DNA of 59,189 bases, taken from IMG/VR virus record IMGVR_UViG_3300044984_002334, positions 1 to 59,189 of that record; one strand, given 5' to 3'. A program made the position numbers and the translations under genes. Position 1 is the first letter of the stretch, and the number at the start of each line of letters is the position of its first letter. This stretch comes from a virus. Positions 22,001 through 48,046 of this stretch are shown piece after piece. The notes beneath the pieces are model-generated. The model did not search any database. It saw only the letters and a program-made list of their open reading frames with translations, and was not told where the DNA came from.

Positions 22001-25000
22001 ACATCATTTTCACCTTCATTAAGCTCCTCTTTAATTTTTGCCATTTTCTCAGCACCTATTACAGACTCAAACAACTTACTCATCTTGGGAGTAAAGATTG
22101 CCCTTACTAAATGTGCTGTCAATGCATTGTTTACCTCACGGTGTTTCTCAGAACGCTGATTCACATTCTTAATTAATGCAGGGAATATTTTATTCTCAAG
22201 CACATCTAAGAATGCATTTATCTGAGCGAGTTTCTTTGTGTCTTCATGTGCAGTAAAGTAAGCTTTGGCTGCAAGTAGATTAGAGTGCACTGCTTCGTAC
22301 GCAGTTTCATCTTCAATCAACTCTTCCCTAAACTCAGCAATGTATGCTTTTGTAGGTAATAAGATCTTTTCTTTATAGAACAGCTCATTAACAAATGCAT
22401 CTTGATCTTCAGCATCTAATGCTTTATAGTCTTTCAACACAGTAGCACTTTCATCTAACTGAGGATCGTACTCACCATCCATGAATCTATTGATGGTGGA
22501 TTGTCTTGCAGCGATATTTTCTAAAGCTCGAGTATGTTCTGCTATCTTACCTTGTATTAATAATGAACTATTGTTGTAAGCAGCGCTAGTCCAAGGCATG
22601 TCACGTAATCCGAAAGCTTCAATAGCTTCTGGTTCCATGATTTCAGATAACATCATAGGATCTTCATCATTTATATGATCTTGAAGAGCATCTAACTCAT
22701 TCACGTTTGCTTCAAAGTTCGCAGCAACTTCAGAAAGCTTGGCAGACTCTTCTGCTAACTTATTATCTAATGTTACTTTCAAAGCCCTTGTCTCATCATT
22801 GCTGTACGGAAGTCCTTTGTACATACCCATTAAGGAAGTGGCAGGTGCTCCCGCTGCTAACTTAGTTTTTATGTCTTCGATACGAATAAGATTATTCGCA
22901 GCTGCAGTTTCTAACGAGGCCTTCTTACCTATAGGTGCTCGTGCTAATCTAGTTTCTGTTGTATCAAAGGGACCATTTGCATAAGCATTCTGTGAAAGAC
23001 TGTATGCAAGTTCATTCAACCTTGCTATGTCCTCAGGAGTTTTGTTTGCTTTCTTACCTAGAGCCTTAGCTTCATTTCTAGCAGCTTCTACATCTAAGTA
23101 GAGTTCTTTAAAAGTCTTCTTAAGTTCTGCACGCTTTGAGGTTAGTTCAGTATCTAAACCGTCTAAGTCTTTAAGCATGTTATCTATTACTTCCTTCGCA
23201 CCATCAGTGGTTGCTTTGGATCTTGCAGATTCTAAGGCTTTCCGTTTAGTTGCGGAGTAGAATAAATTCTTCTTTACCCAAAGATCAAATTGACCATCGG
23301 CCATCTCTTTAGCTTTAGAAGATGTAGTACTAGATATGTTCTCGAATGTAGTGGCTAATGATTTGCCTAGAGCAATATTAGCTTTTATATCTGACTCAAT
23401 CCCTAAGGCAGACAGATCAGCATTCGCACCTTCTTCTAAGGAATCGAAGTAACTACCAATCTCTTCTTTAGAGTAGCCTTTGTTCATAAGTGTGTAGACA
23501 TGAGAAGCCATAGCTGTGTGCTTGTTCATCTCTGCCATAACAGGATCATTGTTAAAGGCTGCTACAGTCTGAGCATCCCAGAATCTTTTCTCACGCAATT
23601 GATTAGTTGTCACTTGAGTAACAGCTTCTGGGTCTACAATCGTATTACCATCCTCATCTAACTCGTAATTAGTTATCTCATGATCTTGATCTCCTAATTT
23701 AATAGTCTTTGTAGGTTCGGCCTTGCTAATTTTATTAATAGAGTTAGCATTCTCTCTAAAAGCTACGTGAGCAGCTTTAGAAAAAGAACCTCCGAAAAGA
23801 TCAGCTCTACGAGCTAACTCCTCAGTTCTCATTCCTTTCTCTTGCTTCTTATCTAACATAGCTCCATAAACACCAGACAGTCCGCCTATCGTAGCACCCA
23901 ATCCAATAGCTACACTACCTTCTATTTCATCAGCAGTTAGCTCAGCTCCAGGAACAAATGACTTTGCAAAACCTAGGATGTTTGATCCCATGTTAGAGAT
24001 GATCTGATCTATGTAATCATCCTCATCATCAAGTCTTCCTTTAGCAAGGTTCTTCTCATATTGCTGCATAGAGGTTTGAATGTTCTCTTCCCAGAAACCT
24101 TCTGAGAGAATACCTGTCCCAGCTTTAGACCAGAGCTTCGCTTTAACCGCAGCTTCTTCAACTGCTTTCGCTCCACCCTTAGCCCAGATCTTAGATCGTA
24201 AACTCTTTTGTGAAGAGCTCCACGCTCCGTGTAAGAAGGTGTTCTCTATGAAGTTAGGCACTATAAGCGCACCTACGTTTGTTTTAAATACACGAGCAGC
24301 TGCTTGTCCCGCTTGGAACTTAGCTGTTTCTTCATCTACGCCTTTCTCAATAAGAATCTCATATACATCCTTACGTGTACCGTACGCTTCAGCTGCAGCC
24401 TCTGCTACAGTATTGTAACCTGTGCTTGTAGCAAGCTTAATCTGTTGTCCTGTAGGCGCAACACTCTTTAAGAACTCAGCAGTATTCTTTACGAGGTCAC
24501 GAGTACCAAGTATTGTCTTAGCAACCGGACGTGCAAATCCTTTTAGGATAGCATCATCTACAGCTTGTAGGCCGGCATCAGCGAGTCTAGATACAGGCAC
24601 GGCTCCTTCTAATTGTCCAAATGCTTTTGTAGCAGCTACTAAGGATTCATCAAGCGCACCAAACTTAGAGCCTATGGTTAATGCCCTAGCTCCTGTTCCA
24701 ACTGCTCCACCCACTTTACCAATCACGGCACCGGGTACATACGCAGATGCTACGTACGCTATTCCATCTGCAAGGTCAGTTGTCCAGAACTTAGCAGTTC
24801 CCATCTTACCGATCCAACCGGAGTCATTGTATTGTGCGGAAGAGTATGTAGGTAATACATCACGTAACTTCTCATCAGCTTCTTGGCCCCACTTAGTAAT
24901 AGAGTTATCCCATAACGGAGAGAGATCTTGGTCAGCTATAGCTTTGGGAATGCTAAGTACAGAACCAAATCCTCCTACTACTTTAGGGATAATAGATAAG

Positions 25001-25209
25001 GAACGTGAGAGTAGCCCACTACCTGCTGCATCCCAGAAGCTCTGGTTCTCAGCTCGGTTTTCTTCTTGATTATAATCTGGGCGATAGTTCCTATCGTACG
25101 AATTAGAGTTAGCTGCTAATGGTACGGTTACATCTCGTCTAAGATCTATTCGTGTTAATTTAGGAACTCCAAGTTCAGCTAAACTTTTTCCTTTTACGAC
25201 CTCTGGCAT
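10075..25209 (-). CDS. 5044-aa giant virion protein: SF1 helicase + zincin protease + crAss-type RNA polymerase
   Basis: One uninterrupted 15.1-kb frame. The N-terminal ~500 residues contain several hydrophobic Gly/Ala-rich stretches (e.g. VASAYVPGAVIGKVGGAVG), possibly for membrane passage. An SF1 helicase follows: Walker A GIGGSGKT at 1247-1254, Walker B YIVIDEVY at 1313-1320, GDPSQL, and a C-terminal VAEAQGYQWDEVFV...YTAYSRTK motif near 1455-1500. A zincin protease motif, HEGLH, is at 2286-2290. The RNA polymerase signature GSDFDVDSLF has its metal-binding aspartates at 3973, 3975 and 3977, preceded by RIPSTELHS and PKELVPI as in the phi14:2-type crAss virion polymerase. In that phage the enzyme is injected to transcribe early genes. 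Here polymerase, unwinding and proteolysis are in one chain, perhaps matured by self-cleavage. Its ATG lies 1 base after the cargo-gene stop. Confidence 0.9.
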   Translation of the reverse strand: MPEVVKGKSLAELGVPKLTRIDLRRDVTVPLAANSNSYDRNYRPDYNQEENRAENQSFWDAAGSGLLSRSLSIIPKVVGGFGSVLSIPKAIADQDLSPLWDNSITKWGQEADEKLRDVLPTYSSAQYNDSGWIGKMGTAKFWTTDLADGIAYVASAYVPGAVIGKVGGAVGTGARALTIGSKFGALDESLVAATKAFGQLEGAVPVSRLADAGLQAVDDAILKGFARPVAKTILGTRDLVKNTAEFLKSVAPTGQQIKLATSTGYNTVAEAAAEAYGTRKDVYEILIEKGVDEETAKFQAGQAAARVFKTNVGALIVPNFIENTFLHGAWSSSQKSLRSKIWAKGGAKAVEEAAVKAKLWSKAGTGILSEGFWEENIQTSMQQYEKNLAKGRLDDEDDYIDQIISNMGSNILGFAKSFVPGAELTADEIEGSVAIGLGATIGGLSGVYGAMLDKKQEKGMRTEELARRADLFGGSFSKAAHVAFRENANSINKISKAEPTKTIKLGDQDHEITNYELDEDGNTIVDPEAVTQVTTNQLREKRFWDAQTVAAFNNDPVMAEMNKHTAMASHVYTLMNKGYSKEEIGSYFDSLEEGANADLSALGIESDIKANIALGKSLATTFENISSTTSSKAKEMADGQFDLWVKKNLFYSATKRKALESARSKATTDGAKEVIDNMLKDLDGLDTELTSKRAELKKTFKELYLDVEAARNEAKALGKKANKTPEDIARLNELAYSLSQNAYANGPFDTTETRLARAPIGKKASLETAAANNLIRIEDIKTKLAAGAPATSLMGMYKGLPYSNDETRALKVTLDNKLAEESAKLSEVAANFEANVNELDALQDHINDEDPMMLSEIMEPEAIEAFGLRDMPWTSAAYNNSSLLIQGKIAEHTRALENIAARQSTINRFMDGEYDPQLDESATVLKDYKALDAEDQDAFVNELFYKEKILLPTKAYIAEFREELIEDETAYEAVHSNLLAAKAYFTAHEDTKKLAQINAFLDVLENKIFPALIKNVNQRSEKHREVNNALTAHLVRAIFTPKMSKLFESVIGAEKMAKIKEELNEGENDVLPFDGVLSIVSTFRNLSTAEQEHEFLDSLKEIKFSKDFEAFGLKPARVKELDTYSLTGPIAVIDNLIRDHYGDDVPPYITKFSNDYDFNYLAKVAKPVDDKFALKIKDYYEQALALGLITKLMGSNLDYVKFVALKEKLAQPPSLQQNIVLTQGMLFLTNPPLTVSHAGDNVLLSKGIGGSGKTFLLASSLYEMYKSLNPAAKVYAFSKTKLTSENINNAIFGDKTKGSFEAFMAADISPYDYIVIDEVYTFSKEELDAITAKIKSKRIIALGDPSQLKAEAESSLDKSLRAYNTIPLTTSYRTNVGYIASFMSKYQLNAKEVQSPIATASEELSSITDTSAVFGVIGAKDTEFQKLLSTPTTRSRVVLVSSQEDKAKYSGVTVLTVAEAQGYQWDEVFVDINELDLPAEPFEMNKVYYTAYSRTKSLLVTTSPSVVNGAPNTDMSSTITNSVEELTKTKDYFNSNINSAKNLQNILAGVTIISPSALTEVTATEEDVETNSSEDVAITSESFAAIDPADVVLPTPELQEGEAFLINPTNYAFSRGNVPTSGIGHIIPLSRNGVNFYQVVMKGNEGKYYRVAVLSEEEAKTIPLKGMPVLNEAALTEVIPDISLISAGEIEITRADALSISYIPGAFETAQPAYDNGATSLIEDVIIKFYTSYYGTHPSGLEFIQSLNPEERWVNKNADGTYTVNWKAIQRTVKDPSGNDVIVSDINLKIFDKHKNKPPKELAHVTPAPGFPYLIFSNLKRVGREGIVTASEKPFVIPLNSSPLDASSVSNLIEFTRAAEVLEQELGIPLGSEEFGDTVRSASEHYEVDIDTHTGENTYGIKKKSTAPPISSAMDQVVRGVFGGTRRMVTFETEDEAVEYLNENGTTIEGTDYFKVNGDVIVAITETKNKRFRLEASTDATNREENTIPYKQLQMREGMGPAQHEFNNLAKANSNVNGEQLRRNLMKWDPVQKKNVKQSGMYRAGSLLTNYETDEKTGDSFVKEFVDYDRLYANPDVIALLGEGVQFTDQDKLSDLRTALQRAYQDRGSDAATARGQAENVIFFFTSAETTLPFLQAIVNPILEEGANGNLNTPLKMSEISRTNLAKDHKTVSQQLSSSFIKVNPTTVTYKLTDAIVVGPEVEKGKTYGAKELFSEMKVVGELERIRLLVETALPEQAKVYESLKGIYLNGEYRKDLAMTALDENGVFSISVGLPVGKIESHLMLHEGLHAVTKASLMKGKKDRLSKKDTPEALLYQRIAALKKRFDGAVKGKINPDTGSKYKLTEVYETTPSELDIFEFVASLSNPKFRELAKSIEVLPKSKDSILKRLLQTILDYLADILGLDANVYDATLAVLENFYGDTKAQFLRPAPPVVVTRSVTEVKAETLGRLNKQLNDADEYEFDELAANVTSSFPMLERIPTYGETSNLKFRDSFLLLPEEEQLRILSSIGTSSFAYVNQNVEQVYTHLGTIYTSKSMGLYLDTLLAGKELTKEQINLIKSIIFLDASNPTTKLIPNILKAVTNDRDALYDILFTQVFNNKDKSEFLIKTNSTTNREAFTKMMTLPEFNKLFEALGYLVMPEIALAIQKVEDRSAARYIVAKNLVLNTVSANMAKTTEVMKIRNELFAELKTNLSNPAYVFPNGLTRSGSAKAIKALYAELGTANSNRKVEILYNELPALEDMLAGIDSLTSSNTKTNTLVLKDIIKDIYPNTNFDENAIGRVNLELAELGEEEFYSGDTELKESSGILEYLKLYNKSYETTLSESMKDFLSFVQVGNRYLSSALVYIKTMQLASTLDWTQSLSSTKNSISAQLLKLKSDSGLSGLDLAIIDNLYNNIILATNNSFVDGVTIPTNLHITAVNSIAGVNAYIAYEADGIKTLAELEKLPTSGKQMTSNSLFLFLKAKNNALTIAQFNKMLHKADAINVLRGVHNTMASMKETDLFISTRTSAEGNTFRMVKSRSSDVSVTIKEFISNELYERFGNGTLKSLHTLYYDHKFVSEGKPTTIRAALSSNPKAKKVAIRYFYKMLNLPANNLTIKDEEVAELAEKIKGLLSHTAKVTSDIVTSEDDTVKVFNFPEWLESVDGYISEINKPMARSDEFIRNPSVLDLNGNKFYKYHESSFMYDVLNNIIDIDSSLINSQSTKNSKFRVVPDHLLTDLHKHNIFIQSPKRAANRIYAVGEYAGAKNKDNGSSTEYLRENKFFFFQRKFITGFVDGIRQYGNSYHQFSFVPSDSPKHPLVRLGLLSMDKTKYGIAEMFDSLKAKANLLERGIIDIEKYEKSLSSNLFANFKVGLKVSTEFPNWREIPSDELAARAYDYLKKEALTYLENNIKELEPSFDKRMIATMLSLRNAEKEKNLFSGEFNELLDTIQYDFTKGEEIINFKSSDKGNINLILPLFTLFYLNNTVNSYHLNQLYLGDYSAFPSVDMIIKRFAGTKAPGIRGLVDPIIGMKETYKLAILADTVVGLETTRAKFAELFFGGVVPENEKEEFENFMTFFGDEFESTDAQGFMTPARLADLSKGFEKSWTLGNVHKPVYFGIDPHTFNDKDGNPVMSTSIARYVKNSTVVLTDELCAKFKYLARLREVMESQGNDEAVFRSAVKVGLPILYSEEGVPLKYPTMANIMKKVAGKDTDLSSLEGIGAVGMLSDFADAYDSAPVLPSLTLSNHNYRLQFNATTDVEKDVSVYSQLMYFLNVYGDKLKNPAYENTQVAARQVYDLIAELINDGKKEFFDTLTKEGLNKYLAKNLGGSGSERALDLIYNGVNHNHPILEKKGIIALASGLGKSTTKIKFKGGKLVLQTAEGVSWDTGTDIVATNKTNLDALTYKYEEVNGRKMLVAEVVVPAELLTTEQRVALKNGQSIYTMPDGMAFRIPSTELHSAIAFRIVDTYPGGKTNVIIAPKELVPIHGSDFDVDSLFVIMRETVSISEASYVDGIVLTGLISKLGQVFNELKSLEDTLESQEDILKLQELKRTFKEQFKLSVEVATATTDSGLELERKFQEAFIASKAPNEATFRKSWMKRNHIVMGPDKIMEPTVLSAFSEMITKIEDFSTLNPSFIPYLETVLKFITEIVSTEDVMINTNADTPVGYEVVNNKYSLSKEYLNYIKYNLAALESLEGSLQEELKAGFGGLISKSIKSLKSLKAKYLKNSVTETMLDVITDENNKYRMTTPIAFTALTDIIDDDFYKQFQQGKDLDLTNLEDEFQAFEMLTAGVVLTGAFANAAKSFGYLATAGAEETLNKIYISIGELQQELLMTSDADKKTALNKQIDNLQKAKDDYYKTFEFKEYRSPVLNYDTRYRFNINGEDTLFDRIATKDAEGKYLVTQVLDTLTNAAIDNLKLGYLYRAGINQNIGNAVVGLVSTGMPMEAIIALLYQDVFKPLTKSKVKNASTFVADLLKKYPVSTKVLSLEDLKNNITTPNDEITAAAVHLFAKGFKIGGDMRSLSTFLNIVKEQEVFVQNIFKNQELLEAKIGTYKDGVLKSRQDFSFIIPNMFNSAAHLKAAYEVNTDLISFIKDKWSLHSDPMIHMSKEVYKAVTLNSADETGEEYVKIRRAFSNYLLASDPLIKSRLSLVTPKAVTLSDGGSYVLSKQRTFNDEVATFIQKLQAYDRTHPLGERNEFLNTLSIQFNDQKVRTLSFRAGIGIQPEDIAKLALGFKQLNQYTIINGEVTRSLVLDSSKVSPIQRDLLVYALLNLGLDNSSSSYAAYIPSTMFKNVIDRYVTKLTNASEGVTGAQLNHFALFNVITNANRLPKIYYDRSASFIPYDPVTQAKAIDAGYEIITLPNTDTRIKVFFDKRFTPEKNDKGEAKAFPPYIKDTYKQKTTVFKLVLFTPDYGYYQKVGNINDVYYTETPDNYNIATNFTPTELTVHTVQESPTTALTYSKLINGVKKDDIIFITPSYNYDRSLRRKVQVGSVTKNPTGSGIIIKFQDISDTAVLSDWDEDGVPKSVDNVLRAFGLSLEEFSQYSPEEQQKLLDCNG

Positions 25210-36264: not shown

Positions 36265-36693
36265 TCATGTAGTGATTTCAATATATATTTTCTCCTTTAA
36301 TAGTGTAGCCAGTAACAGTTTATACAACTTATTAAAGGTGCTTTTTGAGTTTATAATTTTAGACCCTACTTTATTACCTACAAGCAAGCAGCCAGATGAA
36401 TCAGCTTCAGTATTGCCAGGATGAATTCGAATTCCTTCAAACACAGGTACATTAAGTAAAAGTGGAAGAGCTCGTTTAAATCGGGGAGAGTGAGAAATGA
36501 TTACCTCATATACCCCGTAAGGAATAGCAGTTTCATGCTTTATTTTTAAAGACATTAACTGTTCTTTACTTTGCAACTTATTTAACCCTCTATCCTTATC
36601 TTCTAACACATCACAATAGAATTCGTTGTTTATATATAACTGACCTATTGTGTTTGTCTGGTTAAACTCAGTTCTTTTTAATGTTAACTCCAT
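36265..36693 (-). CDS. DUF5675 lysis-type protein (L,D-transpeptidase-like fold)
   Basis: A 142-aa protein with the hallmarks of DUF5675: an N-terminal ELTLKRTEFNQTNTIGQLYI, then FYCDVLEDKDRG, AIPYGVYEV, SPRFKRALPLL and the signature GIRIHPGNTEADSSGCLLVG (His...Gly-Cys, as in the YkuD catalytic centre). Family members are common in Bacteroidota phages and thought to act on the cell wall, but biochemical proof is limited. It starts inside the end of the 430-aa gene (10-base overlap) and is followed by a terminator, so it ends the fibre/lysis unit. No signal peptide, so a holin or other export route would be needed. Confidence 0.8.
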   Translation of the reverse strand: MELTLKRTEFNQTNTIGQLYINNEFYCDVLEDKDRGLNKLQSKEQLMSLKIKHETAIPYGVYEVIISHSPRFKRALPLLLNVPVFEGIRIHPGNTEADSSGCLLVGNKVGSKIINSKSTFNKLYKLLLATLLKEKIYIEITT

Positions 36694-38382: not shown

Positions 38383-38833
38383 TTTTAATTTTCTTTGTTA
38401 TTAAGTACTGCGCAAGTAACGATACATATTCTATGAACTCCTCAGATTCTGTGTAAGCTCCTACGATATCTTTAATTTGTGCAACGTTATCTGTATTGTC
38501 ATCAGCCAAAACTTTAAAGATTTCTAAACGCAATCCTTCAGTACCGATCAAGATTTTAGACAAATTCTCATCTTTAATCATAAGAACTAACTGTGCAGTA
38601 GCTTCTTTTTCTAAAGTTATAAATGCTTCAGATGTAAGTGTTTGCTTTAAAATTTCTTTGATTTGCTCTTCATTATTAGGATTGCTATCAAGCAACGCAT
38701 CTGTAATTAAGCTAGCGCGATCAAATATAAGTTGAGTGGTTACAACAGCTGAAGTATTGTGTATGTGAGAAAGTATTTCGTTCTGAAATTTACCTATGCA
38801 GAACTTAAGAAGTTTTAAAAATAATTTTTTCAT
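38363..38833 (-). CDS. hypothetical helical protein in the lysis region
   Basis: A 156-aa protein with a basic amphipathic start (MKKLFLKLLKFCIGKFQNE) and an otherwise helical, acidic body (EEQIKEILKQTLTSEAF, DNVAQIKDIVGAYTESEEF). The ending IKNGRNSK is basic. The N-terminal helix might associate with membrane but is not a clean transmembrane segment. It overlaps the PAS-protein gene by 4 bases and lies in the same unit as the lysis-type enzyme. A role in lysis control is possible but unsupported by a motif. Confidence 0.5.
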   Translation of the reverse strand: MKKLFLKLLKFCIGKFQNEILSHIHNTSAVVTTQLIFDRASLITDALLDSNPNNEEQIKEILKQTLTSEAFITLEKEATAQLVLMIKDENLSKILIGTEGLRLEIFKVLADDNTDNVAQIKDIVGAYTESEEFIEYVSLLAQYLITKKIKNGRNSK

Positions 38834-39399
38834 TTTATGTGTGTTTTATTTATTGCAATACCACCTATTCCAACTATCTCTCCACCAACTTTACGTGGAT
38901 ACCTTATTACGTATAGATCTATTGTTTGATCTTTAATTTTAATCGTCTCTGTCAAAAATACAATTTCTTTGTGCGCTAATAAATCATTGACTTTAAAAGT
39001 TTCAGCTTCTTCTTTAGACCACAACTCTTCGTCTTTCTTACCTATGTAATCAGAAGATATTTTACCACGAGGTATAAGGAAAGCACTTTCATATGCTCGG
39101 TTTAAGGAAAGCATTGTTCCATCTCTATCTTTAATCCACATAGGAATTGGTAATTCCATATGAGCTGTTTCAAGTAAAACAAGTTTCACTTTAAATTCAT
39201 TTAGCATGTCTTCTAGATGATCTATCTTAATTTTTAAAGCTGTTTCTAAGTCTCTTAATCTTTGATTGTCATCTCTCCACAATTGTATGATAGCACTAAA
39301 ATCTTCCCTGCCTTCTTTTCGTTTTGCTAAATAAAGATTTACTATGGCTGCTAAACCCCCTCCACCTATAAATAGAAGTATATCTTTAAATACATCCAT
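38830..39399 (-). CDS. membrane-anchored coiled-coil protein with a PAS sensor domain
   Basis: A 189-aa protein in three parts. Residues 7-26 (ILLFIGGGGLAAIVNLYLAK) form one membrane helix. Residues about 40-80 are a coiled coil (QRLRDLETALKIKIDHLEDM). Residues about 80-189 read as a PAS domain: PIPMWIKDRDGTMLSLNRAY, YIGKKDEELWSKEEAE, FLTETIKIKDQT, YVIRYPRKVGGEIVGIGGIA and a final 'INKTHIK', matching the '...kD.dG.i..vN.a...', 'GK.d.el' and 'P..d..G.viGi.gia.DIT' blocks. PAS domains sense small ligands, redox state or light. Lying between fibre genes and a lysis-type enzyme, it could be a holin-like or regulatory sensor; that is inference. No kinase or other output domain is attached. Confidence 0.75.
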   Translation of the reverse strand: MDVFKDILLFIGGGGLAAIVNLYLAKRKEGREDFSAIIQLWRDDNQRLRDLETALKIKIDHLEDMLNEFKVKLVLLETAHMELPIPMWIKDRDGTMLSLNRAYESAFLIPRGKISSDYIGKKDEELWSKEEAETFKVNDLLAHKEIVFLTETIKIKDQTIDLYVIRYPRKVGGEIVGIGGIAINKTHIK

Positions 39400-39400
39400 G

Positions 39401-40042
39401 TTAATTTAAAACTTTTACCGTGTAAACACCTGAAGGAATAGTGGGAGTAGTACTCGAAGTAGAATTTGCTATACGAATTGTAACTACATTTTCATTTAAA
39501 ACAAAGGCACTGATAGTCAAACCAGTTAAATAACTAGTAGTGGGTGCGGAAACGAGTACCATGCTTCCAACAGTAGCGCCAGTAACATTGATTGTTAAAT
39601 CTTTACTTGTGTTAGCAGCTATTGTTGTAAATGCTAAAGTATCACTAGCTGATAAAATAGAAGAAAATGTTTGTGAAGTTAAAGCAATAACACCGCTAGC
39701 ATCTGGAAAAGTGATTTGTTGTGTAGCTGTTAAACTACTAAATTCTAATTTAAGTTGAACACTGTTGTTACTAGCATAGTCATAAAAATTAATGTATGGT
39801 TGTCCAGTAGAAGTATTAGCAAGTTTTAATGTGTGATTTCCGCCAAAATCGAGAGTGACTGGTCCAGTAGTAAGTGCGCCTACTTGAGGATCGTAATTTC
39901 CTGCCATTGTTATGGTTTGAAAATTTAATTCTTCTGGAAAAGTTGAAATGTATTGTTTTATAATTGGAACTGCTGCAATATTTAAAGAGGTAGTGGCGTC
40001 TGAATTCCCTCTCATTATGGAAATAGGTAAATATAAACTCAT
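39401..40042 (-). CDS. 213-aa fibre-like beta protein
   Basis: A Thr/Ser/Asn-rich protein with tail-fibre style segments: KLANTSTGQPYINFYDYASN, QQITFPDASGVIALTSQTF and a C-terminal 'VVTIRIANSTSSTTPTIPSG' strand block resembling the end domain of Bacteroidota phage fibres. Its base composition is AT-rich like the rest of the phage, unlike the neighbouring GC-rich fibre part. It lies 51 bases after the preceding fibre gene and 1 base before the PAS gene. Likely an additional short fibre or fibre tip. Confidence 0.6.
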   Translation of the reverse strand: MSLYLPISIMRGNSDATTSLNIAAVPIIKQYISTFPEELNFQTITMAGNYDPQVGALTTGPVTLDFGGNHTLKLANTSTGQPYINFYDYASNNSVQLKLEFSSLTATQQITFPDASGVIALTSQTFSSILSASDTLAFTTIAANTSKDLTINVTGATVGSMVLVSAPTTSYLTGLTISAFVLNENVVTIRIANSTSSTTPTIPSGVYTVKVLN

Positions 40043-40093: not shown

Positions 40094-41749
40094 TTAAAAA
40101 GTTGAAAGTGCTACTCGTTTCCATCCGGTGGACGCTTTGAAATAAATATAATCGTCATCTACGGACACGTCGCCCGCCGCGCCGTTTGCGTCTGCCGATC
40201 CAGTTGGGGTGTATTGAGTTACTAATCTTAACTGTGTATATCCGTTTGTACCTGTAATGGTGACGTTGGAAGTAGGGACCGTTGTGCTGCCAAATGCGGA
40301 TTTACCAACAAAATTATTTACCGCCGTCGTACCTGTTTGATATATTGCTTTTCTTGCAGTACCGCCTGTATTTGTTCCATCTGCTGAAATTTCTAAGGCC
40401 CGAAAGTCTGCCGATGCTGTTAGGATCGGATTTATAAATACGTTTCTAACTATACCCGATGCGCCACCGGTTTGATTTGTGGTTGTCGTTAATTGAATTT
40501 CACTGAAAGTACACGTGCCGGATGTTGGAGCAAAAATATTTGAAAAAAGTGTTCCGTATTTTGTGCCCGACGTTGTTGAAAAACTACTGTTTCCAATTCT
40601 TATACCAGTACCCGACGCGTTGTTACTTGAATTTAACACAATTGCCTGTGTGCTTGCGGCGCTCGTTGATATTGATATTGTGCCCGAACTATTGCCTAAT
40701 GTCAATGCTTGCGCACTATTCCCGATCGTAAAGCCTGCCGTTGTTGTGATACCTGTGTTAAGATATGATGCTGCGGATACTCCCGCGCTGCTGAATACCC
40801 TTAACCCTGATCCCGGACTAAAATTAAATTGTTCGACCAATGCTCCTGCATTATTAACAAGACTTATTCCAAGGTTACCCGTACGGCTCGCGTGTGTCGC
40901 TGTGCCCCATTTTGCAGATATTTGCGCGGCATCCTGATTGTCTGTTGTTGTTGTTTCCAGTTCAAACAGTAGCCCGGCTCCAAAATTATCGGCTGTGGTA
41001 CCGGTGCTATTTGCTTGAATAGTTAATGCCTCTTGCACCGTTGCCGTGTTTGCTGTGACAACCGTTTGCGTAATTGCACCGCCTGTTGTTGCCGCTCCTG
41101 CAATTGTTTGCCGAACCACGCCGTTTGTCTCAAACGAAAGTGCATTTGCATCGTTGGTTCCGATTAATACGGTTGTGCCTGTTGTGTTACCTCCGTTAAT
41201 AATATCCCCGGCCCCGCCTGTTATCGTCGTATTGGTTACGCTTGTTATACGCCCGTCCGCATCTACGGCAAAAACAGGCACCTGTGTTGCGCTTCCGTAT
41301 GTGGCGGCTGTTACCGTTGTGCTTTCCAATTCCGAACTTCCCACTGCGTTTGCTGCGATCTTTGCCGCTGTTACCGCGTCGTTTGCAATTGCCCAAGTTG
41401 TGCCTCCATCATTTACTGTAATATCACCTTTGCTACCATCGGTAATACCCCCACCAGATACTGTTGTATTAGTTACTGAAGTAATCTGGCCTTTAGCATT
41501 TACTGCGAACACAGGAATTTGAGAAGCTGAACCATAAGTGTTAGCTGTAACAGAAGTATTAGCTAACATTGTTGAAGAAACCCCATTAGACTTAATAGAA
41601 AGAATCTGACTATCAGTACCATTTCCTGAGAATATAGTTGTGTCTACGGTTATAGAATCGCTTTTAATTAAGTTTATTAACTCACTGTAAGATTGCGAAT
41701 AAACATTTGCTCCAAATAAAATGAAGCTGCATAAAATATAATTTTTCAT
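40094..41749 (-). CDS. mosaic tail-fibre/adhesin with signal peptide
   Basis: The start at 41749, two bases after the previous gene's stop, yields MKNYILCSFILFGANVYSQS, a Sec-type signal peptide with the Bacteroidota-like 'S-Q' cleavage region. An ATG at 41773 would bury it. The body is a beta-repeat fibre. It contains two copies of the fibre repeat 'VTAxTYGSAxQ(I/V)PVFAVxAxGxITSVTNTT', the first AT-rich at about 41550-41461, the second GC-rich at about 41313-41221. The C-terminus (YTQLRLVTQYTPTGSADANG, then a DDYIYFKASTGWKRVAL ending) is a common end of Bacteroidota fibres. From about 41400 down to the stop the DNA is clearly more GC-rich than the phage average. Likely receptor-binding or surface-binding protein. 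Confidence 0.75.
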   Translation of the reverse strand: MKNYILCSFILFGANVYSQSYSELINLIKSDSITVDTTIFSGNGTDSQILSIKSNGVSSTMLANTSVTANTYGSASQIPVFAVNAKGQITSVTNTTVSGGGITDGSKGDITVNDGGTTWAIANDAVTAAKIAANAVGSSELESTTVTAATYGSATQVPVFAVDADGRITSVTNTTITGGAGDIINGGNTTGTTVLIGTNDANALSFETNGVVRQTIAGAATTGGAITQTVVTANTATVQEALTIQANSTGTTADNFGAGLLFELETTTTDNQDAAQISAKWGTATHASRTGNLGISLVNNAGALVEQFNFSPGSGLRVFSSAGVSAASYLNTGITTTAGFTIGNSAQALTLGNSSGTISISTSAASTQAIVLNSSNNASGTGIRIGNSSFSTTSGTKYGTLFSNIFAPTSGTCTFSEIQLTTTTNQTGGASGIVRNVFINPILTASADFRALEISADGTNTGGTARKAIYQTGTTAVNNFVGKSAFGSTTVPTSNVTITGTNGYTQLRLVTQYTPTGSADANGAAGDVSVDDDYIYFKASTGWKRVALSTF

Positions 41750-41751
41750 AG

Positions 41752-44700
41752 TTATAATATTAAACGATACCATCTTAACCCATTTGTATTGTAAACATAA
41801 GAATACGTATCTCCTCCTTTTGCTGGGGAAGCAGGAACGCTGGCTTGATAAATAGTTTTACCTGCGCTAGCATTTATAGTTAAGGTGGTAATAAGGTTAG
41901 AACCTGTAGGTATAGTGCCACCAAAAACAATAGTAACAACTTGTCCTTCGTAAGGATTCGCTGGTAAGACAAATGTATGTGATGCTATAAGTGTTGGTAT
42001 ATTTATCACTACTCTTGAAATGTTATTTGCAAGTGACGTAGTTGCAGCTGAGGTTAAAGATGTGGCATAAAATGTAGTTCCTAAACTAACACCACTAGGT
42101 ATAGTTGCTATTCCTGTAGTTCCAGCTACTGTGACATATGGTGTTATAGTTCCAGTTCCAGATTGATATGACATTACCAAATTATCTAAGTTGTCATGTA
42201 AAAGACTCCAAGTATCTCCAGCACCATTAGTATTCAATAACAAAAGATTAGAGGCTGTATCAGCAACTGCATTACCCCGACCATCAATACGTATTGCTCC
42301 AGCAAATCTTGCATTTCCTTCTACACGTAATTTAACCGCAGCTAATACTGCAGCACCTATTGCAACATTAGTATTGTTAGTAACTATAGCGCTACTTCCT
42401 GCTATTGAAGTTCCGTTATAATATAACATTTGAGACGAACTACCGCCAATTAACGACGCTAAATTCGCATTCGTTGCGTTACTTATTGTAGCAACACCTG
42501 CTGTAACATTATTATATAAAAAACCTGAACTTAAAGCTCCTAGGTTTTGCTCATTAGTTAAAGTAGGTTCTGAAGTAGAAGTAACAAAAGATAATCCTGT
42601 ACCTACACCACCTCCTGTAGGATTTTTAGGTTCCCAGATAGAAGTTGTATTATTCCATGCAATTACTTGACCGTCTGTAGGAAGAACTGTACTGAGTGCT
42701 CTTGTAGCTAACCTAGTATCTACATAACCTTTATCAGTTAAAGATCTATTTGTGTAACCAGTTTTATAATCAGCTGCATATTGTAATCCTTTAGAAGTAG
42801 CCCTATTATCTGTTACAATCATATCTCCTGTACTATTATTCAATTCTAGTTGGATGTTATCACCAAATACATTCCAACTAGCTGTGCCAGTTAGTGAAAA
42901 TGATGTTACTCCACCTGTTATCGTATTTACTGTGATACCATTTCCATAATCATTTATAGATCCATCTTCTAAGGAGTTGCCACCTAAAGCAACTTTTGGT
43001 ATTCTATTTACCGTAAGTGTTGAAGTTTTACCAATTTTATTATTGAACGTTGACCAATCTGTGCTGTTTAATGCACCACGAGCAGTTGCCGATGCAGTTG
43101 GTAAATTAAATGTATGTGAATTGGATGCAGAATTAATTACAAAATCTGTTCCAGAAGTACCTGTAACTAATGTTTGCGCGTTTCCAGTTAAGGAATTCAA
43201 AGAAGTTAAGGCATTAGCACTAACAGTTAATGTGTTAGAAGCTGCAAAATAAGTTGTTCCAATAATACCAGATCCGTTAACAGTTAAAGTTTGCCCACCT
43301 AAATTCTCAGAATTAGTGCCATCTGTTAGTGTAAGATTTTCATTTGTTACACTACCATCCACCTCTGTACCAGTTACAATTATAGTACCAGCCGATTGAG
43401 TAACTGCATTAATGCCAGCCCCTGCAATTGTAGCAGTACCGCCTCCAGTTCCTGATATTGCGTTAAGTGACAGTATTCCGGTTGCTACACCTGTTACTGT
43501 CAGCGTTTGTGCCTCATTTGTTATGCTACCATCTACTTCCGTTGCCGTTATGGTAATCGTGCCTCCATTTGCAGATATTGTTTCTGCAATAGCATTAATG
43601 CCAGCGGCGTTGATTGTTACACCTGTTGCACCCGACGTGTTGGAGGTAATTACCGAAGAAGCGGCACCACCAGCGCCTACTCCTATTAATCCCTCGTTAG
43701 TTACGCTACCATCTACCTCCGTTCCTGTTATGGTGAAATTAGGATACGTGCCGGTTGCTACATTAATACCAGCCCCTGTAATTGCGACTGTTTGGTCGGG
43801 TGCTGTATTTGTTATTGTTGCAATACCGTCTAATGTTGTTCCTGTTGTTGCAATTCCTATTCCGGTGCCCTCGGCTAACTGTAGAGAACCTCCGGTATTG
43901 CTAAGTGTAACAGTATGAGTAGTTGCGTTTGAGGTGTTTGCAAGTGTTTGCAGTTCCAGTGTGGCCGGGTCGAGTGTGGAGCGCACTGCTATGCCGGAAG
44001 CGTCGAGTTGTAGCAGGCGGTTTCCTGTGCCGGATAGGTTGTCGAAGATTACGGCGCGGTCGTCTCTGACGGAAAAGGCTAATTGACTACTGCTATTCCG
44101 CATGCGAACGGAATAAGTAGACGAGGTACTACCAGTGCCTGTTACAGTCATCTTATTATTACTGTTGGGAGTGCTTCCTACGCCTGTATTACCTTTTAGG
44201 TAGTTATTATTCGTAGATACATCTGAATATAAAAAGTATTTGCTCCCTGTTACAGACGATAAGTTAAGGTTATCAAATACGCCATACTGATTCACAACAG
44301 ACCCTCCAGAATTTGTCGCGCCTTCCAATAGTAACCCGTATAAATTTGATGTTGTTGTACCCGCTCCGTTGGTTGCCATATATGCCCTATATCCTGTTTG
44401 TGTATTTCCAGTTAGCCGCGAATTAATTATAAGCGCATTAATGCCGTAAGCGGTTTTTGACTCCTTAACCTCTAACTCTATACCATATCCGGTGTTCCAT
44501 CTGCCTGTACTATTATCGAGCACACGCGCATTTATGCCGCGCGCTGTATGAGCATCCCGCGTATCACTATATCTGTTAACGTCGAACTGTAGTCCATTGC
44601 AATACTGAACATCGCCCGTCGTTGCAAAGTTATTAATAACGCCAAACACTCCTCTAATACCTAATGCTGTACCGGAATTATTTGTAGTAGTACTTTGGAA

Positions 44701-46620
44701 TCCAGCTGTGTTGATGTTTACGGTTTCAACTGGAATTATAACGTCTGATTTCATTCCGTATGCAAACAAAGATGACGGTGCGCCAGTAGAGCCTAATGTT
44801 ATACTGCTGTTATATCCATTTATATTTGTATTACTCGTGGACGATGTTCCTGAATATACTACTCTGTTAAGATATGTATTAGCACTTATAATGCCTGAAC
44901 TTTGGTGAACGTAGGTGCCGTCCGTGTAAATGGAATTGTTGCCTAATCCCGGAGTTATCCGTAGCCCCGTACCGTTATAAGTGAAATTTGCATTACTTGT
45001 AATAGAATTAACATTATTCCAGTACGCCACACGTTCATTGCTCCCGCTGCCCGTTACCCCTCCGCCAGCCGTAATATCTGCCGCCACCAACCCCCGAAAC
45101 GCCGGAGTAGCAAGACCACCAGAAGTTGGCCCAGCGAATACTGTATTGGCCGACTGCGTGAATAGTGCCGTTGCTAACGTGCCGGAGCCTGTAACAGGCG
45201 AACCTGACACCGAAAAAATGGACGGCATGGTAAGTCCCACACTTGTAACTGTACCAACCGGTGCAGTAATCCATGAAGGAGAGGTCCCGTTAGTGGATAG
45301 TATTTTCCCAGTGTTGCCAGTCTGGGTGGGCAATTCTATTTCGTTGGTGATACTGCTATCTGCAACTGTACTATTTTGCCACCACTTACTAGCACTATTA
45401 TATGTCAAAACCTGCCCATTGGTCGGACTTGTCAACTTAACGTCGTGTAACTCGTTTAACCCTTCGCCGTTTTGCACATTTGCGTATATGATACCTACAG
45501 CCGCATGCTGTCTAACACAATACCCTACTATCACCTCATGATTAGGCGCTGTTGGAAGGGTAGCGGTTATGCCGCCGGGAACGGTTGGTGAAAGATACAA
45601 AGGTGCGCCCTCCGGGAATGCCGACGTATTAAGACCTCTTACCAGCCCCTCCGTTGTTACATATCCCTCCTGATTATTTGCAATATTTTCTGTTGCAATA
45701 CCCAATACAGTATTGGTTGTGCTGTCACTGCTTGCGCTTGCAATTCTGACCGCTATTCGATTACCCTGCGCCCCTGATACGTAAACTACCTGGCCATTAT
45801 TTATCGTTGTACCGGATTTATTGACCACCCGTGCAAGTGATTCCTGACCGACCTGCAATGTAACATTTCCGCCTTTCATACCCAAGTCAAGGGTGCCGTC
45901 TGTATCGTTCCATCGAAAAGTGCCGATACCGCCGGGCAAAGTTGGTAACGTGTTGAATGATAATCGGTCGAGCGTGTCAATCCTGATAACAGTACCGTCT
46001 ATTGCAATTCCTTCACCGGCCGTGTAAGAAGTGCCGCCCCCGCTACCACTGGCTATCCAAATAGTTCCATTAGATCTATAAATTTGTCCAAAAGAGTTTT
46101 TCCAAAGTTCTCCTTGTTTGCCAACTGCTGTTACAGCTGGCTGCACTCCTTCCGCTCCTATATAGTCAGTTATCTCTTTTGCATCTTTTATATATTTATC
46201 GACTTGAATAACTAATCTGTTCCGTATAAGAGAAGCTAAGTCGTTCCTCAAAGAAGAAGGAAAAGAAGGAAGTTTATAAAATGTAGATGGATGTATAATT
46301 GCTGCCTCTCCATATGGGACATCTGGAGCAATATCAGAAAACACTTCCATTTCTAGTATAGAACCAGAAGCAAGTATAATACTTGTGACTGTGAATATAG
46401 AAAGATTAGGTCCGTCTAATGTATATAAAGAATCATTAATAGAAACTGAAGTGGCATCAAAAGCACCTAAGTCATCTCCAGTAATTCCAGTAATGTTAAA
46501 ATAACCTCCTCCTGTGCGAGCCACAGTAGTAATTTCATATCTCATTATAGGATTAATGGGAACTTGAGCATTTGTTGAAAATATACAAAAAATCCCAAAT
46601 ACTAAAAGTAAAACTCTCAT
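41752..46620 (-). CDS. 1622-aa mosaic tail fibre with signal peptide
   Basis: N-terminal MRVLLLVFGIFCIFSTNAQ is a canonical Bacteroidota signal peptide ending NAQ. The chain then shows fibre modules: GELWKNSFGQIYRSNGTIWI, a 'NNGQVVYVSGAQGN...GIATENIANNQEGYVTTEG' domain known from phage tail proteins, then VTSVGLTMPSIFSVSGSPVT and AFRGLVAADI repeats, and three TEVDGS(V/I)TNE units about 59 residues apart. The C-terminus (about 41760-42600) is a surface-protein type beta domain (KTIYQASVPASPAKGGDTYS, YNTNGLRWYRLIL). DNA is AT-rich at both ends and GC-rich between about 43440 and 46070. Probably the main receptor-binding fibre, or a host surface protein captured by the phage. Confidence 0.8.
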   Translation of the reverse strand: MRVLLLVFGIFCIFSTNAQVPINPIMRYEITTVARTGGGYFNITGITGDDLGAFDATSVSINDSLYTLDGPNLSIFTVTSIILASGSILEMEVFSDIAPDVPYGEAAIIHPSTFYKLPSFPSSLRNDLASLIRNRLVIQVDKYIKDAKEITDYIGAEGVQPAVTAVGKQGELWKNSFGQIYRSNGTIWIASGSGGGTSYTAGEGIAIDGTVIRIDTLDRLSFNTLPTLPGGIGTFRWNDTDGTLDLGMKGGNVTLQVGQESLARVVNKSGTTINNGQVVYVSGAQGNRIAVRIASASSDSTTNTVLGIATENIANNQEGYVTTEGLVRGLNTSAFPEGAPLYLSPTVPGGITATLPTAPNHEVIVGYCVRQHAAVGIIYANVQNGEGLNELHDVKLTSPTNGQVLTYNSASKWWQNSTVADSSITNEIELPTQTGNTGKILSTNGTSPSWITAPVGTVTSVGLTMPSIFSVSGSPVTGSGTLATALFTQSANTVFAGPTSGGLATPAFRGLVAADITAGGGVTGSGSNERVAYWNNVNSITSNANFTYNGTGLRITPGLGNNSIYTDGTYVHQSSGIISANTYLNRVVYSGTSSTSNTNINGYNSSITLGSTGAPSSLFAYGMKSDVIIPVETVNINTAGFQSTTTNNSGTALGIRGVFGVINNFATTGDVQYCNGLQFDVNRYSDTRDAHTARGINARVLDNSTGRWNTGYGIELEVKESKTAYGINALIINSRLTGNTQTGYRAYMATNGAGTTTSNLYGLLLEGATNSGGSVVNQYGVFDNLNLSSVTGSKYFLYSDVSTNNNYLKGNTGVGSTPNSNNKMTVTGTGSTSSTYSVRMRNSSSQLAFSVRDDRAVIFDNLSGTGNRLLQLDASGIAVRSTLDPATLELQTLANTSNATTHTVTLSNTGGSLQLAEGTGIGIATTGTTLDGIATITNTAPDQTVAITGAGINVATGTYPNFTITGTEVDGSVTNEGLIGVGAGGAASSVITSNTSGATGVTINAAGINAIAETISANGGTITITATEVDGSITNEAQTLTVTGVATGILSLNAISGTGGGTATIAGAGINAVTQSAGTIIVTGTEVDGSVTNENLTLTDGTNSENLGGQTLTVNGSGIIGTTYFAASNTLTVSANALTSLNSLTGNAQTLVTGTSGTDFVINSASNSHTFNLPTASATARGALNSTDWSTFNNKIGKTSTLTVNRIPKVALGGNSLEDGSINDYGNGITVNTITGGVTSFSLTGTASWNVFGDNIQLELNNSTGDMIVTDNRATSKGLQYAADYKTGYTNRSLTDKGYVDTRLATRALSTVLPTDGQVIAWNNTTSIWEPKNPTGGGVGTGLSFVTSTSEPTLTNEQNLGALSSGFLYNNVTAGVATISNATNANLASLIGGSSSQMLYYNGTSIAGSSAIVTNNTNVAIGAAVLAAVKLRVEGNARFAGAIRIDGRGNAVADTASNLLLLNTNGAGDTWSLLHDNLDNLVMSYQSGTGTITPYVTVAGTTGIATIPSGVSLGTTFYATSLTSAATTSLANNISRVVINIPTLIASHTFVLPANPYEGQVVTIVFGGTIPTGSNLITTLTINASAGKTIYQASVPASPAKGGDTYSYVYNTNGLRWYRLIL

Positions 46621-46621
46621 G

Positions 46622-48007
46622 TTAAAAATTAAATTTAAGTGCCCAACTAGTTCCTATACCATTTAAATTTAAGATTCTAATTGATAAATGACTAGTACTA
46701 TCTATACATTGGATTTGTGGAGTATTATCTATGTCATAGATGTGTGGAACTCCCGCTGAAGCAGGCCCACCTAAAATCATATTTATTTTAGTTACTGAAG
46801 GATAATCAGCTGCTTCCGTGAGTGGGAAAGTAACAGTGAAATTATTAGCAGCTAGATCAGAACTTCTGCCGATAATTCTTGCCGATATAAGAATTACTCC
46901 TAAAGGAATATTAAAAGTACCTTCTCCTACAACTTTAGAAAAAGTAATGCCAGTTCCAGTAGCCATTACATATGCATTATTACCAGCGCTATATTTGACG
47001 ATTCCAGATCCGCCTCCGCCTGCAGGAGCATCTCCCTTATAAAGTTTTCCTGTAATATCTTCTATATAGAGAACTTTGTCTGTAGTTCCCGTATCAAGAT
47101 TATTGATAAAATGCCCAGAATTATTTATTGTTAAATTTCTATTATAGGTTCCATCAAACTGCTCCATTGTGATTGAGTTTTCGGAAACCATAGATATAGC
47201 AGCTTTTATATTACCATTTACTTGTCGAAGAGAAGTAAGCGTACCATCTGGGTCAACACGCATTTCTGCATATCTATTTGAGTTATTATTTGTTTCAGAA
47301 CGTAACGCTCCACCAGCTATTAAACTAGAAGTTAGATAAAGTGTGGTTCTAGCATTAGTACCTATATTGTTGTCTGCTTCTAAAGTAATAGACGTTGTAT
47401 CATTTATAGTTAAATATTTTGAGAACGCTCCGTTTATAATAGTATTTTGATTAAGAGTTCCTCCTAATCTATACTTATCTAAAGGAGCTCCTGTACCAGA
47501 AATACCATTTTCAGAAAAGCCAGAACCTATAGATGTTTCAAGAGCTTGAAGTGCTGCTTTAATAGTTGAATTATCTGGAATTGTATTACCTGTAAATATT
47601 CCTAAATTAGTTGAATTTGAGGCTACCCCAGTAAGGGTCGTAAGATCTTCTACATCTAACTCAAGATTATCTAAGTTAACTGGTTGAGTAATTGTAATAA
47701 ATGATTCTTTTGTTTTACCAGCTGCTGTTTGTAATCCAGCAAGTAAGTTGGTAGCTGCAGGAAGTGTTACATCTGCGCCACTAGATGAGTTTACGTCTAT
47801 TGTAGAGGCAGTATTATTAGCAAGTGAAAGATTAGTAATTCCTGAACCTGAACCGGCGTAAGTAATTGCGTCTAGCACGTAATTAAATAATGAGATAGCG
47901 TCATTAGGTATATTTAACCCATGAGCTGCGTCATTAGCATTGTTCCGTGAAACAGTAGTATTTTTAGGGATATAAACTCCCTTTAGTTGTTCTAAAGTAT
48001 ATGCCAT
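46622..48007 (-). CDS. 461-aa tail-fibre protein
   Basis: Starts at the ATG at 48007 (AYTLEQLKGVYIPKNTT). A GTG further upstream would fall inside a terminator hairpin and is rejected. The protein is Ser/Thr/Asn/Gly-rich with fibre-type strands, e.g. 'NLSLANNTASTIDVNSSSGA', 'LTTLTGVASNSTNLGIF' and 'DNSTIKAALQALETSIG', then a triple-Gly linker DAPAGGGGSGIV before a compact C-terminal beta domain. This pattern of capsid/tail anchor plus fibre repeats plus tip is typical of Bacteroidota phage fibres. It is the first gene of the fibre cassette, AT-rich throughout, and has no signal peptide. Likely the fibre that joins the virion. Confidence 0.7.
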   Translation of the reverse strand: MAYTLEQLKGVYIPKNTTVSRNNANDAAHGLNIPNDAISLFNYVLDAITYAGSGSGITNLSLANNTASTIDVNSSSGADVTLPAATNLLAGLQTAAGKTKESFITITQPVNLDNLELDVEDLTTLTGVASNSTNLGIFTGNTIPDNSTIKAALQALETSIGSGFSENGISGTGAPLDKYRLGGTLNQNTIINGAFSKYLTINDTTSITLEADNNIGTNARTTLYLTSSLIAGGALRSETNNNSNRYAEMRVDPDGTLTSLRQVNGNIKAAISMVSENSITMEQFDGTYNRNLTINNSGHFINNLDTGTTDKVLYIEDITGKLYKGDAPAGGGGSGIVKYSAGNNAYVMATGTGITFSKVVGEGTFNIPLGVILISARIIGRSSDLAANNFTVTFPLTEAADYPSVTKINMILGGPASAGVPHIYDIDNTPQIQCIDSTSHLSIRILNLNGIGTSWALKFNF

Positions 48008-48013
48008 AGGTGT

Positions 48014-48046
48014 AAAAAAAAAGGGGATGCGGAATCCCACACCCCC
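48014..48046 (-). terminator. intrinsic terminator ahead of the fibre cassette
   Basis: On the minus strand a 10-bp stem with two wobble pairs (arms 48046-48037 and 48032-48023, 4-base loop) is followed by nine T residues (48022-48014). It starts 12 bases after the stop of the 453-aa gene and ends 7 bases before the ATG of the fibre gene. It should cut expression of the fibre cassette relative to the capsid genes unless read through. No separate promoter fits in the gap. Confidence 0.85.

Follow-up and report, generated by a model that had tools for sequence, protein, structure and literature searches.

Two adjacent genes of a crAss-like phage encode large fiber-like proteins whose N-termini look like signals for export from the cell, which raises the question of what such a signal is for in a protein of this type. 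The usual view is that the fibers of tailed phages are made and attached in the cytoplasm. The first-pass annotation of this locus read both N-termini as Bacteroidota-type Sec signal peptides and, on the premise that virion proteins should not be exported, took the genes for either host surface-protein genes captured whole or adhesins exported to the surface of the infected cell.

The phage and its two signal-bearing genes

The stretch of DNA analyzed here (the window) is a viral record of 59,189 bases, and the phage is known here from sequence alone. Its terminase, portal, and major capsid protein are of crAss-like type and order, with PHROG matches to portal, terminase, and capsid, which places the phage in the Crassvirales. 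Relatives of the capsid and terminase were found in the Fpv-group phages of Flavobacterium psychrophilum, in Cellulophaga phage phi14:2, and in crAss001, the closest relative being L089 (49% capsid identity). Positions 10075-25209 form a single ORF of 5044 aa that adjoins one of 1436 aa, and this is where crAss-like phages have their giant virion cargo/RNA-polymerase genes. The two signal-bearing genes (Table 1) are flanked by one fiber-like gene and, beyond another fiber-like gene, by the lysis genes. Signal peptides thus sit on large fiber genes between the tail or head genes and the lysis genes, which is the layout of Cellulophaga phage phi10:1. The lysis genes begin with a PAS-like domain fused to an N-terminal transmembrane segment, a combination that is kept in phi14:2; a sensor domain on a holin-like protein would be unusual.

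Table 1. Features of the fiber and lysis region of the window.
Feature	Position	Strand	Remark
472-aa fiber-like protein without signal peptide, directly upstream of the 1622-aa gene	46622..48040	-	ATG at 48007 is a possible start
1622-aa fiber-like protein with N-terminal signal peptide	41752..46620	-	ORF and fiber homology
Signal peptide MRVLLLVFGIFCIFSTNA of the 1622-aa protein	46567..46620	-	predicted cleavage before Q19
Tail-fiber domain, residues 217-420 of the 1622-aa protein	45361..45972	-	occurs in fibers with and without signal peptides
551-aa fiber-like protein with N-terminal signal peptide	40094..41749	-	start corrected from 41773
Signal peptide MKNYILCSFILFGANVYS of the 551-aa protein	41696..41749	-	predicted cleavage before Q19
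C-terminal tip (residues 482-551) of the 551-aa protein	40097..40306	-	56% identity to a chromosomal signal-bearing Bacteroidia protein
213-aa fiber-like protein without signal peptide, downstream of the 551-aa gene	39401..40042	-
N-terminal transmembrane segment and PAS-like domain; lysis genes begin here	38830..39399	-	homologue of the phi14:2 PAS-fold protein beside the endolysin
DUF5675 protein, lysis module	36265..36693	-	homologue of crAss001 gp30 (L,D-carboxypeptidase/transpeptidase)

In both proteins, residues 1-18 comprise a basic start and an uncharged hydrophobic core, with best 9-residue Kyte-Doolittle means of 3.28 (1622-aa protein) and 2.61 (551-aa protein). The residues at -3/-1 of the cleavage sites are, loosely, small (T/A and V/S, respectively) and are followed by Q at +1. 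The sequences MRVLLLVFGIFCIFSTNA and MKNYILCSFILFGANVYS, each followed by Q, are present as the first-pass annotation had quoted them, and its reading of them as Sec signals held up, as both N-termini passed a filter for the basic n-region, hydrophobic h-region, and small -3/-1 residues of Sec/SPase I substrates. The filter is crude and hand-made, with cut-offs that are not calibrated on a reference set; it passed 88 of 19,800 shuffled N-termini (0.44%) and 3 of 3,911 internal Met-started 45-mers (0.08%), rates too low for a chance hydrophobic start, which was ruled out on this basis. Among the ORFs of related crAss-like contigs, 10 of 608 with at least 100 aa passed, as did four of the 286 with at least 300 aa, the window's own 1622-aa protein being one of them. 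Because these pass rates are low, it is not accidental that two neighboring large fiber genes both pass, and with host-type Sec N-termini such as these, export would be the natural inference.

The position of the starts supports the presence of the signals in the products. The ORF of the 1622-aa protein starts at 46620, one base past the upstream stop, and its frame is open for just 11 codons further upstream. The earliest in-frame ATG of the second gene is at 41773, but the ATG at 41749, from which the first-pass annotation quoted the N-terminus, sits two bases past the stop codon (TAA) of the preceding gene (TATAACTATGAAA), so that the product is probably 551 aa long. The gaps between genes in this operon are mostly a few bases. 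Met26 of the 1622-aa protein might be used as a start, which would leave the signal untranslated, but it would also create an atypical gap of ~76 bases; moreover, the second gene has no nearby downstream alternative and the upstream codons spell a textbook signal. Wrong starts were therefore rejected on gene spacing, and we attach hardly any credence to them.

Residues ~217-420 of the 1622-aa protein share 33-51% identity with tail-fiber proteins of many phages. No Pfam or PHROG family matched this protein, and neither it nor the 551-aa protein had any above-cut-off Pfam match, a T9SS C-terminal sorting domain included. The N-terminal domain of the larger protein had no relatives in viral contigs except in one identical contig. 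Among the signal-bearing proteins compared, the homology links found for the 1622-aa protein were to fiber A of a siphophage family (44% over 204 residues) and to L073 (76% over 58 residues), and for the 551-aa protein to a 512-aa protein of L267 (29% over 256 residues). Most phage proteins related to the 1622-aa protein through the 217-420 domain have other N-terminal parts and no signal. In the tree of this domain, which needs two label changes, the window sequence falls in no well-supported set; a single origin of the signal-bearing fibers is compatible with this tree but was not adopted.

Signal-bearing fibers in other phages of Bacteroidota

Ten signal-bearing fiber or pectate-lyase proteins of Cellulophaga phages (phi10:1 gp091-094, phi19:1 gp101-104, and phi39:1 gp25-26) all carry the GenBank note “experimental MS/MS proteomics analysis” and are thus annotated virion proteins, a status taken here from the annotation notes. 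These notes indicate that signal-bearing fibers can be virion proteins, which contradicts, as a general rule, the premise that virion proteins should not bear export signals. The choice between a host gene and an exported adhesin also omits a third option, namely export followed by incorporation into the particle. In phi10:1 and phi39:1, those MS/MS-annotated proteins of head, portal, and tail tube that were checked had no signals, and neither had any of the MS/MS-annotated proteins of phi14:2. The predicted mature N-terminal peptides are QTTDVVK for phi10:1 gp091, QTVEGTVGSDGSLIPYNVSGGLDETAVDTK for phi10:1 gp094, and QVEQVEAVVLAK for phi39:1 gp25. The pectate lyase phi10:1 gp095 also has a signal and, unlike its neighbors, has no MS/MS note.

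One spike domain has a signal-bearing N-terminus in phi10:1, phi19:1, phi19:3, and phi13:2 and a signal-less one in phi17:2. Likewise, the pectate-lyase spike of phi10:1 recurs with signals in phi19:3, phi13:2, phi46:3, and Ingeline, the phi17:2 version being on a different N-terminal part. As the annotation calls both forms, with and without a signal, structural or pectate lyase, the signal is compatible with a virion role. The signal-bearing cassette is common to Assiduviridae, Pachyviridae, and Duneviridae. In phi10:1, phi19:1, and phi39:1 it resembles the window in that large fiber/spike genes end the tail genes, the host belongs to Bacteroidota, and the signals mostly have Q at +1. It differs in that the phage backbones are unrelated and the proteins have no detectable sequence similarity, the window's two proteins having no BLASTP match to the virion-annotated Cellulophaga proteins at E 0.01. 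The GenBank notes shown for this cassette make no mention of signal peptides. In their passages on the lyases, Bartlau et al. 2021 (PMC8776804) place the pectin and alginate lyase domains of Ingeline and Nekkels in larger proteins “also carrying signaling peptides” and treat these lyases as tail-borne; the same passages leave the signal itself undiscussed, propose no mechanism for it, and show no virion location. These phages, unlike that of the window, are siphoviruses, and the Ingeline cassette was confirmed in our analysis.

A small, signal-less, MS/MS-annotated protein precedes the cassette in phi10:1 (gp090) and phi39:1 (gp24), and small signal-less genes also precede it in L073, L020, and L125. 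These small proteins may be adaptors. The window's corresponding candidate, though larger, is the 472-aa protein, which is also a candidate for an ordinary virion fiber.

Similar proteins were found in the fiber/lysis region of another crAss-like contig, of uncultured siphophages, and of Ingeline. The crAss-like contig L125 encodes, in its fiber region, a spike-like protein of 968 aa with a signal. The same signal stands on a fiber of 1294 aa in siphophage contig L073 and on one of 1278 aa in L080, and in a large family of siphophages two consecutive fiber genes, A and B, bear signals, B having a Peptidase_S74 chaperone. In the siphophages L020, L172, L242, and L073, signal-bearing genes are the sole large fiber genes between the tail and lysis genes. 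Fiber A of the siphophage family (L168-L247) is like the 1622-aa protein in having the 217-420 domain (~44-47% identity in the nearest members) and a preceding signal-like segment. Unlike the window phage, these are siphophages with a tape-measure protein, and ~50 conserved basic residues (MEEIKAPKKERKFLKAIGNIGKVLAEEL...) come before the hydrophobic segment (L020:7569-11246, L172:4365-7985, L184, and relatives). This stretch may be an n-region of exceptional length, may reflect a dual start, or may anchor the protein in the virion. Across 56 distinct N-termini of fiber B, changes in the core mostly replace one hydrophobic residue by another and the cleavage region is constant, which is the pattern a functional signal should show; the retrieval pattern included some of the cleavage region, which biases the invariance there and leaves the hydrophobic core unaffected. 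Not all phages of Bacteroidota have the feature, as no ORF of at least 300 aa passed the filter in seven isolates (6H, P12002L, RAP44, B124-14, FCL-2, Fpv3, and phi14:2).

Several further observations were made on these contigs. In the siphophages, two signal-bearing fibers, a third small signal-bearing protein, a holin-like gene, and a lysis enzyme form a cassette, and the genes upstream of it differ between L184/L193/L198 and L020/L172/L242, as if it had been swapped as a unit. A 12,465-base contig from a Saprospiraceae MAG (L267) has a run of signal-bearing proteins, including that of 512 aa, near lysis-like genes; the other genes tested had no PHROG match, and the contig is possibly an undescribed small phage or plasmid. 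Flavobacterium columnare phage FCL-2 (L272:45363-45806) encodes a signal-bearing protein of 147 aa with the cellular fiber motif GIATTTPTETLDVNG, and other crAss-like contigs have, upstream of the terminase, a gene for a small signal-bearing protein (160-163 aa) that resembles an outer-membrane barrel (L102:3167-3658, L101:3169-3660, and L137:3585-4067). The compared set did not have a generic hairpin pattern downstream of the signal in common. The motif D-S/T-[AILMVT], which we take to be the Bacteroidota O-glycosylation sequon, exceeded its shuffled expectation in L125:13671-16577 (z 4.2), L020:7569-11246 (z 5.8), and L020:11255-12706 (z 2.7), values that repeats may confound. It was not enriched in the window's two fibers (4 vs 6.4 expected in the 1622-aa protein and 2 vs 2.9 in the 551-aa protein), so that O-glycosylation is without support there.

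Relation to host genes

Of the proposed host origin, the capture of whole genes was rejected, because a scan of genome contigs and searches of 395 Bacteroidia genomes yielded partial matches only and no full-length cellular homologue with the same N- and C-terminal parts. In those 395 genomes the N-terminal domain of the 1622-aa protein had no match beyond a short generic stretch, and the 551-aa protein had partial matches in two genomes only. The chromosomal match to the last 70 residues of the latter (56% identity) has Rho, a Mur ligase, and UvrA as neighbors. Signal-bearing fiber/S74 proteins do exist in cellular Bacteroidia, as 49 of the 395 genomes match one such phage protein, many with signals. 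These cellular proteins are like the window's in their signal peptide, their fiber-like repeats, and sometimes their C-terminal tip, and unlike them in being chromosomal, the one inspected in context having no phage neighbors. Their existence and the tip identity make exchange with host secreted genes plausible, and to that extent the suggestion stands; a host origin of parts of the window's proteins is likewise plausible.

Roles of the signal-bearing fibers

We favor the reading, to which we give a probability of roughly 0.48, that the window's two proteins are Sec-exported tail-fiber components that are joined to particles at or after lysis. Both would be made late with a cleavable signal peptide and be exported by Sec to the periplasm, where they would fold, presumably as trimers. 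The fibers would then attach to finished particles when, or after, the host cell lyses, the new N-terminus probably docking on an adaptor that has no signal and is already part of the particle. We infer signal cleavage, export before lysis, incorporation at or after lysis, and the likeness of the window to the Cellulophaga phages. If the signals work, this is the simplest account that covers both them and the annotation of comparable proteins as virion components, and it is supported by signals that are above chance and in the right frame and place, and by the recurrence of this arrangement in several phages of Bacteroidota that are not related. Late attachment is plausible on chemical grounds, since the fibers of T4 and the tailspikes of P22 can join particles in vitro.

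Several points count against this reading. The evidence for a place in the virion consists of annotation notes on other phages, whose proteins have no detectable homology to those of the window, and an exported fiber could co-purify with, or contaminate, Cellulophaga particles. The window phage has the signal-less 472-aa and 213-aa fibers as well, so the exported ones may be dispensable, and its nearest relatives (L089, phi14:2, Fpv3, and crAss001) use fibers without signal peptides. The fibers of crAss001 (gp22) and phi14:2 are, like the window's, Crassvirales fiber/spike proteins, and theirs are virion proteins; unlike the window's they have no signal, and the first 26 residues of gp22 dock in the tail hub (PMC10172136), where a signal would be an obstruction.

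It is also conceivable, though unlikely in our judgment, that the two proteins are non-virion adhesins or decoys exported to the cell surface or into the medium, and that the 472-aa and 213-aa proteins are the true virion fibers. Such decoys, an idea that goes back to the first-pass annotation, might mask receptors, exclude superinfection, loosen capsules, or affect biofilms. The signal peptides on both proteins would fit, as would phi10:1 gp095, which bears a signal and lacks the MS/MS note of its neighbors, and the signal-less fiber genes in the window and in L125 leave room for a purely secreted role. However, ten comparable proteins in three isolates are annotated virion components, some siphophages would have no large fiber left, and no Pfam secretion or anchoring domain for crossing the outer membrane was found.

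A rather improbable reading is that assembly is the ordinary cytoplasmic one and the hydrophobic N-terminus stays unprocessed and acts in the particle as a helix for docking or membrane contact. The docking of crAss001 fiber N-termini in the tail hub (PMC10172136) and the ~50-residue conserved basic stretch before the hydrophobic segment in one siphophage family are in keeping with this, but the docking N-terminus of crAss001 (MFFTQEDYRKIEKW) is not hydrophobic, such segments should be recognized by the host Sec system, and the basic start, small cleavage-site residues, and Bacteroidota +1 Q recur in unrelated families. It is very unlikely that the genes are recently gained, host-type secreted genes whose phage role is accidental or transitional. 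Signal-bearing fiber/S74 proteins in cellular Bacteroidia, the tip of the 551-aa protein, and the absence of the genes from close relatives would agree with such a gain; however, a full-length host counterpart was not found, and the signals are intact in two adjacent genes and in several independent phage groups.

In term searches, the word “signal” was absent from the crAss001 structure paper (PMC10172136) and “signal peptide” from a Crassvirales review (PMC10136315). We found no account of a Sec route for phage fibers in the open-licence literature searched. PblA and PblB of Streptococcus mitis phage SM1 offer a parallel, as they are tail proteins of a phage and are displayed on the cell surface; unlike the window's proteins, they are not known to bear signal peptides, and it is lysis that brings them to the surface.

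Export by Sec before attachment may extend beyond this phage. We tentatively suggest that in many Bacteroidota phages the whole set of receptor-binding fibers is exported by Sec, matured in the periplasm (perhaps with glycosylation by the host), and joined to particles upon or after lysis by means of an adaptor of cytoplasmic origin, an arrangement under which the cassette could move between unrelated tails. If Sec-routed fibers are real, assembly would be divided by the inner membrane, and periplasmic folding and modification would be open to fibers. One gene would then supply both free and particle-bound fibers, which would bear on host range and decoy effects in the phages of Bacteroidota.
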